The notes beneath the pieces are model-generated. The model saw only the letters and a list, made by a program, of their open reading frames with translations, searched no databases and had not been told where the DNA came from. 40,114 nt of DNA, from the NCBI GenBank assembly GCA_026989015.1, contig JALSKD010000184.1, positions 1 to 40,114 of the forward strand, given 5' to 3'. Positions 2,364 through 4,936 of the stretch are shown piece after piece. This stretch comes from Gammaproteobacteria bacterium (lineage in GTDB: Bacteria; Pseudomonadota; Gammaproteobacteria; GCA-001735895). A program made the translations under genes and the position numbers. Numbering within the stretch: the stretch's first letter is position 1; each line of letters opens with the position of its first letter.

Positions 2364-3938
2364 ATGGCACAGCCGCTCGGACAAACCGAAACCCGCGACT
2401 GGCTCGAAACCCTGCGCGCCTTCCTGCATCCGCGGGTGGTCACCATGCTGTTCTTCGGTTTTTCCGCCGGGGTACCGCTGCTGCTGATCTTTTCGTCGCT
2501 GAGCCTGTGGCTGCGCGAGGCCGGCATCGACCGCTCCACCGTCACCTTTTTCAGTTGGGCGGCGCTGGGCTATTCCTTCAAATTCGTCTGGGCACCGCTG
2601 ATCGACCGCCTGCCAGTGCCTCTGCTGACCCGCGCGCTGGGTCGCCGCCGCGCGTGGATTCTGGTCGCCCAGGCCGCCATCGCCGTGGCCCTGCTGTGGA
2701 TGGGGTCGGTGGACCCGGCCGCGGGCGAACCGGCCTTGCTGATGATGGCCGCGGCGGCGGTGATGCTTGGCTTCTCCTCGGCCACCCAGGACATCGTCAT
2801 CGATGCCTACCGCATCGAATCGGCACCGCTGGACCTGCAGGCGCTGATGTCTTCCACCTACATTGCCGGCTACCGCATCGGCATGCTGGCCGCCGGTGCC
2901 GGAGCCCTGTTCCTCGCCAGCCATCTCGGATCCACCGCCGCACACTACGACTACAGCGCCTGGCGCTGGACCTACTACTGCATGGCCGGGCTGATGCTGG
3001 TGGGCATGACGACCGCGCTGATCATTGACGAGCCGGTGGTCAACCGCAGCCACGAGAGCCGCTACGGCAGCCGGGATTTTGCCGGCTTTCTGCTGCTGTT
3101 CCTGCTTGCGGTGGCCGGCTTCGTCGCCAGTTTCTGGCTGTCCGCCGACTGGGCGGCACAGGCCAAGCGCTCGCTGTCCGCAAGCATCGGCAACCGGCCG
3201 CTGGCCGGCATCCTCGTGGAGGGCCTGCGCCTGACCCTGGGCATCGCCGTGGCCGCCCTGCTCGCGCGGATCATGCTGTGGAGCGGGTGGGTCAATCGCT
3301 CACTGGTCGAAACCACCTGGATCGATCCGGTGCGTGATTTCTTCAACCGCTATTCGACCCGGATCGCGCTGCTGTTGCTGCTGCTGGTCGGCACCTACCG
3401 CATTTCCGACATCGTGCTCGGGGTGATCACCAATGTATTCTTTCAGGACATGGGCTTCAGCAAGGAAGAAATCGCCACCATCGTCAAGACCTTCGGACTG
3501 TTCATGACCCTGGCCGGCGGCTTCCTCGGAGGTGTCCTGGCTGCGCGTCACGGCGTGATGCGCATCCTGTTCCTGGGCGCCGTGTTGACCGTGGCGACCA
3601 ACCTGCTGTACCTGCTGCTGGCCAGTGCCGGGCACAGCATTCCCCTGCTGTATGTGGTCATTTCCGCCGACAACCTTTCCGCCGGCCTCGCCAGCGCCGC
3701 CTTCATCGCCTTTCTGTCGGGGCTGACGAACACCTCGTTCACCGCCGTTCAGTACGCCATCTTCAGCTCCCTGATGAGCCTGCTGCCGAAAATCATCGGC
3801 GGTTATTCCGGCTCGATGGTGGACAGCATCGGCTACGACCGGTTCTTTCTGTTTGCCGCCCTGCTGGGACTGCCCGTGCTGGCACTGATCTGGCTGGCCA
3901 ACCGCTGGCTGATGGCCCGTCCGGACACAAAAACCTGA
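2364..3938 (+). CDS. ampG: AmpG-like MFS muropeptide permease
   Basis: A 524-residue inner-membrane protein with about 12-14 hydrophobic segments. The N-terminal stretch (FGFSAGVPLLLIFSSLSLWL, then KFVWAPLIDRLPVP and LGRRRAWI) is characteristic of AmpG, the major-facilitator permease that imports anhydromuropeptides from the periplasm for peptidoglycan recycling. Length agrees with the long Gammaproteobacterial AmpG type. The ATG follows the stop codon of the exonuclease gene with no gap, so translation is probably coupled. No beta-lactamase or ampR gene is nearby, so a link to resistance induction cannot be inferred. Confidence 0.87.
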   Translation: MAQPLGQTETRDWLETLRAFLHPRVVTMLFFGFSAGVPLLLIFSSLSLWLREAGIDRSTVTFFSWAALGYSFKFVWAPLIDRLPVPLLTRALGRRRAWILVAQAAIAVALLWMGSVDPAAGEPALLMMAAAAVMLGFSSATQDIVIDAYRIESAPLDLQALMSSTYIAGYRIGMLAAGAGALFLASHLGSTAAHYDYSAWRWTYYCMAGLMLVGMTTALIIDEPVVNRSHESRYGSRDFAGFLLLFLLAVAGFVASFWLSADWAAQAKRSLSASIGNRPLAGILVEGLRLTLGIAVAALLARIMLWSGWVNRSLVETTWIDPVRDFFNRYSTRIALLLLLLVGTYRISDIVLGVITNVFFQDMGFSKEEIATIVKTFGLFMTLAGGFLGGVLAARHGVMRILFLGAVLTVATNLLYLLLASAGHSIPLLYVVISADNLSAGLASAAFIAFLSGLTNTSFTAVQYAIFSSLMSLLPKIIGGYSGSMVDSIGYDRFFLFAALLGLPVLALIWLANRWLMARPDTKT

Positions 3939-4028
3939 ACCCCTGCCCGGTTTTACGGTCTGATACAGCGCATAATGGGTATTGCTTCCAAGGCGTCCGT
4001 TAAGCGGGCGTACCGGTATATACTGTTA

Positions 4029-4032
4029 TTAA
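4029..4032. repeat. TTAA target-site duplication, left copy
   Basis: TTAA directly abuts the left terminal repeat of the element and matches the copy at 4306-4309. In a GC-rich genome two TTAA tetramers placed exactly at both tips are best explained as a duplicated target. Confidence 0.75.
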
Positions 4033-4305
4033 CCCGGCAAGCATCTACATAGTATTCAGGGCTTCAAGAATGGGCCGGATCAAGGCGCGGCGCGCAGGCA
4101 AGGGTCATTCCCTTGGCAAGCGCCGCAACACCGAGCCGGTTCATTCTTGAAGCCCCTAACCTGTTGAAAACAAAGAGCGAGGCCCGCACGTGCTCGCCCG
4201 CGGACGGTGTTATCGGCGCTTGCTGCAGAATGACTGCAGCGGCGCACCGATGCCTTGCCGCGAACGAGCGCGAGCGGGCTGAACACGATGTAGATGCTTG
4301 CCGGG
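4033..4305. mobile_element. MITE-like non-autonomous element with TTAA target duplication
   Basis: A 273-bp element bounded by perfect 18-bp terminal inverted repeats: CCCGGCAAGCATCTACAT at 4033-4050 and its reverse complement at 4288-4305. Similarity continues imperfectly for about nine more bases (a GT.TTCAG pattern). TTAA is present immediately outside both ends (4029-4032 and 4306-4309), as expected for a target-site duplication. It has no plausible transposase gene and would need one supplied in trans. Inside are two hairpins, arms 4059-4072/4142-4155 and about 4222-4228/4234-4240. The sequence TTAACCCGGCAA recurs at three other places in the window, one next to a probable transposase remnant at the right edge. 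Confidence 0.82.
4059..4155. repeat. long hairpin inside the MITE-like element
   Basis: GGGCTTCAAGAATG at 4059-4072 is exactly complementary in reverse to CATTCTTGAAGCCC at 4142-4155, giving a 14-bp stem closing a 69-nt interior; a GGCCGG / CCGG pairing next to the arms may lengthen it. A second, shorter imperfect hairpin (GCTGCAG-AATGA-CTGCAGC, 4222-4240, extendable by GGCGC pairings) lies in the right half. Confidence 0.7.
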
Positions 4306-4309
4306 TTAA
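4306..4309. repeat. TTAA target-site duplication, right copy
   Basis: The second TTAA, directly outside the right terminal repeat, followed by TATATACAG. It pairs with the copy at 4029-4032. Confidence 0.75.
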
Positions 4310-4348
4310 TATATACAGCTCATCACTTTCAAGGACACGAAAACCGTC

Positions 4349-4936
4349 ATGATCAAGACACTGCTGCGCTACCGCATCAATCACTGCTTCAAAAAGGGGC
4401 ACTATGAGCGCGCGCTCGAGTTGCTCGAGCCACTGGCGCGCAAGGACGACGCCCAGGCACAGTTTCTGATCGGCCTGGTCTATTCCAATGCCTGGCGTGA
4501 ACTCGGCGAAGACGATGCCTTCAACGCCGAGAAATGGTTCACCCGTGCCGCCGACAACGGTCACCGCATCGCCCAGCTCATGCTCGGCGACCTCTATGCC
4601 CTGGACCCCCACCGCCCGGAACATGTCCAGCGTGCCGTCAAATGGTACCTGCGCGCCCACAAATCGGGCTGCCCGGTCGCTGGCCGCAAACTGGCCGCCC
4701 TCTACCTGCGGCACCGCGGCGAGCTGGATGTCGAGATCAATACCGCCGGGCTGCTCTATGAGGCGGCGGACCAGGGCGACTACAAGGCCGCGGTACTGCT
4801 GGCCTGGCTCTACAAAAAGGGTATCTGCGGCTTCCAGCGCGATTTCCAGCGTTTCAATTACTGGTGGAACAAGCTCAAGCAGATGAGCAAGCGCTATCCG
4901 TCCCTGCCCTCGCAGAACGATCTGCTGCATTATTAA
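4349..4936 (+). CDS. Sel1-like repeat protein
   Basis: A 195-residue protein without a signal peptide, built of helical Sel1/TPR-like repeats. The clearest run from about residue 34, with AQAQFLIGLVY, then AEKWFTRAADNGHRIAQLMLGDLY and AVKWYLRAHKSGCPVAGRKLAALY, followed by a last unit around LLYEAADQGDYKAAVLLAWLYKKG. Such repeats bind protein partners; the partner is not evident. The ATG at 4349 has only an AAGGA 13 bases upstream. The gene lies between a TTAA-flanked transposable element (right tip 4305) and a solo copy of the same element end that begins at its stop codon (TAT TAA CCCGGCAAG), so it is bracketed by element ends. Confidence 0.8.
   Translation: MIKTLLRYRINHCFKKGHYERALELLEPLARKDDAQAQFLIGLVYSNAWRELGEDDAFNAEKWFTRAADNGHRIAQLMLGDLYALDPHRPEHVQRAVKWYLRAHKSGCPVAGRKLAALYLRHRGELDVEINTAGLLYEAADQGDYKAAVLLAWLYKKGICGFQRDFQRFNYWWNKLKQMSKRYPSLPSQNDLLHY

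Follow-up and report, generated by a model that had tools for sequence, protein, structure and literature searches.

The 281-bp feature at positions 4029–4309 of the window, by which we mean the whole 40,114-nucleotide stretch of gammaproteobacterial DNA that was analysed, is in our estimate with a probability of about 0.94 a MITE of the IS630/Tc1-mariner family, having TTAACCCGGC ends, a TA target and an interior composed of two convergent conserved hairpins. A MITE of this kind is in itself already known and would be an ordinary IS630-type MITE. The evidence comes from dispersed copies in the same genome, from unoccupied sites in relatives, from autonomous elements with the same ends, and from comparison of the hairpins across the class.

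Anatomy of the element and its copies

Inspection of the sequence places TTAA at 4029–4032 and 4306–4309, with CCCGGCAAGCATCTACAT at 4033–4050 and its exact reverse complement at 4288–4305. The perfect 18-bp inverted repeat reported in the initial annotation is therefore exact, as are the TTAA outside both arms and the 273 bp between the TTAAs; the annotation had also noted the lack of a transposase gene, and we found no transposase-like ORF inside 4029–4309. The inverted repeat is longer than 18 bp, being perfect over 22 bp with the palindromic TTAA (4029–4050 and 4288–4309), amounting to 24 bp when the TA beyond each end (4027–4028 and 4310–4311) is counted, and extending to ~31 bp at 94% identity between the element ends. 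At ≤3 mismatches the 18-mer arm has only two sites in the window, where 0.03 are expected by chance and no shuffle contained two. Folded as DNA, the 281 nt reach −106 kcal/mol versus −55.5 (sd 4) for shuffles (z = −12.7). The features of the locus are as follows.

2364–3938, + strand: AmpG-like MFS transporter gene, left neighbour (Pfam MFS_1; orthologue 83% identical in the congener locus L117)
4027–4028, no strand: TA, left copy of the putative target-site duplication (TA lies outside both ends and once in relatives' empty sites)
4029–4059, + strand: left terminal inverted repeat (TIR) TTAACCCGGCAAGCATCTACATAGTATTCAG, TTAA included (31 bp, 94% to the right end; TTAACCCGGC tip as in IS630-family elements)
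4059–4155, + strand: hairpin A (predicted fold; covariance model match at 4067–4145, + strand, E 2.9e-14, with hairpins A and B of this copy both in the model's training set)
4156–4181, no strand: linker separating hairpins A and B (predicted fold)
4182–4279, − strand: hairpin B, of the same plan as A but convergent (predicted fold; match at 4193–4271, − strand, E 1.3e-12, to the same model trained on it)
4279–4309, − strand: right TIR, ending GCCGGGTTAA (inverted-repeat comparison of the ends)
4310–4311, no strand: TA, right copy of the putative target-site duplication (TA outside the right end)
4349–4936, + strand: Sel1-repeat-like gene, right neighbour (Pfam Sel1 match weak, below cut-off; orthologue 83% identical in L117)

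Hairpin A consists of a long outer stem, a CAAGGC/AACAC internal loop, an inner stem and a terminal stem with an apical loop. The gap between the two hairpin windows is 47 bp in this copy, compared with 28 bp in most other module-bearing elements. The start codon of the Sel1-like gene is located 39 bp past the right end of the element.

The genome to which the window belongs (2.9 Mb in 198 contigs, 98.5% complete) contains 13 full copies, eight of 281–282 bp and five of 329–330 bp, as well as truncated pieces. These copies occupy unrelated sites and carry TTAACCCGGC at both ends with TA beyond in nearly all; every full-length one has TTAA at each end, in line with the multiple TTAA-flanked copies that a search of the genome had been predicted to yield. 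Copies of the same size class and orientation are 94–97% alike to the window copy, which indicates that they are recent. The five copies of the 329–330-bp class (L009–L013) are longer by about 49 bp, which lie within hairpin A and include a small hairpin, TTGCCCGCATCCCTGCGGGCAA.

In the sole congener searched (G001), orthologues of ampG and of the Sel1-like gene (83% amino acid identity each) are adjacent and separated by a short intergenic region in which neither the element nor a TTAA was found. Because these neighbours occur there without the element, the window copy is most simply read as an insertion in its own lineage, upstream of the Sel1-like gene. The initial annotation had anticipated an orthologous empty site between these two genes holding a single TTAA; the site is indeed empty, and the single TTAA is absent from it. 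The congener's intergenic part is only ~70% alike, so that the junction at this particular locus is not readable base by base. A single copy conserved at this locus in all relatives, which had been named as the outcome that would speak against transposition, is not what we observe, as the element is multi-copy and the congener site is empty. The 13 full copies, the empty ampG/Sel1 site and the autonomous relatives with the same ends described below uphold the original view of a non-autonomous transposon. More specifically, the features expected of a MITE are present: TIRs, no transposase gene and a length under ~600 bp, dispersed copies and empty sites, and an autonomous relative sharing the ends.

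Target site and terminal TTAA

The initial annotation further held that the element has strict TTAA targeting. Under such a reading it would be a piggyBac-like MITE that has 18-bp TIRs, duplicates TTAA and secondarily prefers TA around it (target YATTAATR), which would account for the TTAA at both ends of every full-length copy in the genome and for an outer dinucleotide that is sometimes unequal between the two sides (CA/TA, TA/TG). The flanks of the genome's own and relatives' copies were joined and used to look for unoccupied sites in relatives. Five sites (L003, L058, L093, L094, L097) aligned well and yielded 25 comparisons, in all of which the empty site was exactly 2 bp shorter than the joined flanks, the difference being computed after removal of TTAA..TTAA from the occupied allele, and none of the empty sites at these five loci contained TTAA. 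Excluded from this count were L100, with a 1-bp difference, and the window's own site (L001), with 5 bp over a diverged intergenic region; at L007, L009 and L010 in the same genome and L057 in G018 the relatives' flanks were too diverged or rearranged for the junction to be read. Seven relatives have an empty GCCATATAG where the occupied allele reads GCCATATA, the element and then TAGCC. Likewise, in a CoA-transferase-like gene (identified by reading its translation) the empty allele is CAT CCN AAT ATC in 14 relatives, and the frame is restored with one dinucleotide. A TTAA target duplication is ruled out by these empty sites.

The terminal repeats themselves lead in the same direction. Variants of the TTAA are mirror-symmetric, with TTAT..ATAA in L059 and TTAG..CTAA in L102, and since the tetranucleotide changes as a mirror image and not as a direct copy, it belongs to the inverted repeat rather than to a direct duplication. 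TA is found on both sides in 67 of 94 TTAACCCGGC-ended pairs from this and related genomes, a set that includes a few composites of neighbouring elements. The claim of strict TTAA targeting thus gives way on three grounds, namely empty sites that lack TTAA and are TA-sized, a TTAA that mutates with the TIR, and TA flanks at both ends. Judged from these alignments, TTAA is part of the TIR and the target duplication is TA, as in IS630/Tc1-mariner elements and not as in piggyBac. The resemblance to piggyBac consists of a TTAA beside the terminal repeats in assembled sequence, whereas here TTAA is not the target duplication and the related transposases are of the DDE_3/IS630 type; the autonomous elements with these ends being IS630 elements, we consider a TTAA-targeting origin extremely unlikely. 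The TA duplication is shared with the IS630/Tc1-mariner elements ISY100, IS630 and IS1471-like. ISY100 of the IS630 family inserts in vitro almost only at TA, which becomes duplicated (PMC2170065).

The commonest departures from TA/TA are CA/TA or TA/TG, in about 12 of the 94 pairs, and CA or TG on one flank opposite TA was seen in L094, L098–L100, L103–L106 and L109. Chance mutation of two bases would, in our judgement, yield fewer CA/TG flanks beside intact TIRs than are seen.

Candidate IS630 partners and related elements

Intact TA-flanked IS630-family elements of ~1.1 kb, with TTAACCCGGC ends and a DDE_3 transposase gene, occur in relatives. When the Olavius algarvensis Gamma 3 symbiont (G021) was scanned with a TIR pattern, a pair of repeats 1.1 kb apart was found to enclose a DDE_3 gene; this element is 1,100 bp long with TTAACCCGGCAAT ends, is TA-flanked and encodes a 347-aa transposase matching NF033545 transpos_IS630 (E 3.5e-67). 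An IS630 relative in G348 has a transposase 61% identical to that of G021, TA flanks and the end TTAACCCGGCGACAAAGTATA, which is identical over 21 bp to a MITE end in L057. IS630 plasmid copies from Azotobacter salinestris and Neptuniibacter halophilus also show the same type of ends and TA flanks. The window element is like these four in having TIRs that start with TTAACCCGGC or close to it and unlike them in lacking a transposase; agreement of its TIR with known autonomous ends is limited to the outer ~10–13 bp (up to 21 bp for a sister MITE).

In the mechanism that we propose, an IS630-family transposase encoded elsewhere would bind the TTAACCCGGC-type terminal repeats, excise the element and paste it into a TA dinucleotide, which would be duplicated in the process, and TTAA would be the tip of the element and not its target. 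A PF13358 search for DDE_3 transposases found none in the window's 98.5%-complete genome, nor did a search with the G021 protein yield a relative there. With no partner transposase detected in the genome, where it may be missing, lost or unassembled, we infer that an IS630-type transposase acts in trans; probably the MITE family is stranded in this genome, or its partner resides in other strains or in unassembled DNA. Plasmid and phage collections searched by blastn gave one Azotobacter plasmid fragment and no phage match, an absence that is not firm given that blastn is weak for this module.

Among known bacterial IS630-type MITEs, RUP of Streptococcus pneumoniae and Correia/NEMIS of Neisseria are similarly small and TIR-bounded, with terminal TA and long stem-loops. 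They differ in organism and in TIRs, and twin convergent hairpins with conserved loops were not found in their descriptions. Mobilisation of RUP by IS630-Spn1 has been proposed (PMC2229807). The large sulfur-oxidising bacterium Candidatus Thiomargarita nelsonii has abundant hairpin-forming MITEs (dsrA and hupL families), the dsrA type having TATAG ends, for which no parent IS was found (PMC4853749); we liken them to the window element by description only, as hairpin-forming MITEs.

Additional small elements were observed in other genomes. G021 has about two dozen micro-elements of 32–36 bp made of two abutting TIRs (L105–L112, L335–L354), including 12 identical copies of TTAACCCGGCGACAATATATGTCGCCGGGTTAA on either strand; they are mostly TA-flanked and outnumber full MITEs. 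Deletion of the interior across the ATATAT repeats in the TIRs may have produced them, but the identical copies at separate loci hint at spread in micro-element form. Small elements with TTAACC-type ends in Halomonas (L190, L215) have a different, G+C-rich interior.

The twin-hairpin module

Hairpins A (+) and B (−) share one plan: an outer stem, CAAGGC, a 7-bp inner stem, a short loop, a 6-bp terminal stem and a 5-nt apical loop, followed by a CAAG-type loop, the inner stem, AACGC and the outer stem. In an alignment of 27 diverse hairpins, pairing holds for 97% of the stem cells and covariation is 0.96, against 0.26 in shuffled and ≤0.17 in slid alignments. The terminal stem, which is free of selection by the search, has 94% of its cells paired in these 27 hairpins, and 5 of its 6 pairs have changed at both positions; the inner stem and CAAGGC/AACGC were in the first search pattern, and their conservation is partly by construction. 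An alignment of 91 model matches, most from other genomes and all fitted to the covariance model, gave 92.7% pairing and a covariation of 0.756 versus 0.203 shuffled. Spacing is constant as well, with a 79-mer core in 100 of 115 cases and a gap of 28 bp between the hairpins of most pairs; in all 38 pairs the two hairpins are convergent and lie on opposite strands.

Such a very stable fold, with strongly covarying stems and conserved loops, could also be that of a functional non-coding RNA of the host or of a regulatory hairpin repeat that resembles a MITE. We regard this as very unlikely, as the element is present or absent at orthologous sites with a target duplication, its copies are scattered over unrelated sites, and its TIRs are common to IS630 elements. 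Furthermore, hairpins on opposite strands in every pair fit DNA better than one RNA, and the curated covariance models of Rfam gave no family match, only far-below-threshold miRNA matches that we took as chance. An integron attC site was also considered and rejected on inspection of one alignment, in which the conserved letters, CAAGGC/AACGC, lie inside the stem and are not RYYYAAC ... GTTRRRY boxes at the hairpin ends. CAAGGC/AACGC hairpin loops occur as well in a separate repeat family, GAAATTCGTCAGTTCAAGGCGAAAAATG...CATTTTTCAACGCAGAAATGGCGGATT (L234, L239).

A further explanation concerns the interior only and is compatible with the MITE reading. The hairpins could be functionless descendants of one ancestral MITE whose arms were kept complementary by palindrome repair (template switching), given that the two arms of a hairpin in a long quasi-palindrome can serve to correct one another and that the genome's own copies are recent. 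Such repair should erase the unpaired internal loops too, yet CAAGGC, AACGC and AAG are the most conserved letters, an argument inflated by the inclusion of loops and inner stem in the first search pattern; in addition, the spacing is constant over 76 genera and over mutually unlike TIRs. We consider palindrome repair possible though somewhat doubtful. The account that we favour is selection on the hairpins, which we think acts at the level of DNA because each strand carries the hairpin motif once.

The covariance model matched 99 of 369 sampled gammaproteobacterial genomes (76 of 272 genera) at E ≤ 1e-4, and in a phylum-wide draw 31 of 299 genomes at E ≤ 1e-5, one family outside the class among them; E-values of this model are rough and matches per genome are often lower bounds, to be read as "at least". 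Most class matches examined fall within an element of ~258–283 bp with 28–33-bp TIRs, usually TA-flanked, and the TIRs of module-bearing elements finish inwards in a TTCAG-like motif. The TIRs around the module are of the TTAACCCGG-, GTRCTC-, GTGTAGTGCG-, GTGTCCTGTC-, GTGGGCCAAG-, GTACA- and GGAAGC-types. For many pairs of types the resemblance does not exceed that of shuffled letters; some pairs share short stretches, so a few types may have a common origin. Across many genera, conservation is higher in the hairpin interior than in the ends. We see about an even chance that these elements form an unnamed superfamily defined by its interior, a two-hairpin DNA module under selection, present in over a quarter of the gammaproteobacterial genomes sampled, which would have gained different TIRs repeatedly and been moved by various transposases, of which most or all insert at TA. 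In the literature searched, with ISfinder and most subscription papers outside the search, no description of a twin-hairpin MITE was found. Module elements with AGAGCCTGTCTCAC and GGGCCTGTCATCAG ends (L357, L361) have a left side without TA and are possibly carried by a non-IS630 transposase family.

The usual classification of MITEs goes by their ends and treats what lies between these as the remains of a defunct transposon. In the present elements it is this internal part that is conserved, both in its structure and in particular letters of the loops, and the ends that vary. If this is true, the hairpins do something; they might, for example, aid transposition, affect transcription or help the host to tolerate the element, and the family would offer a compact system for testing the role of the hairpins with the ends held fixed. 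The correction from TTAA to TA also strikes out one claimed case of a bacterial piggyBac-like element.
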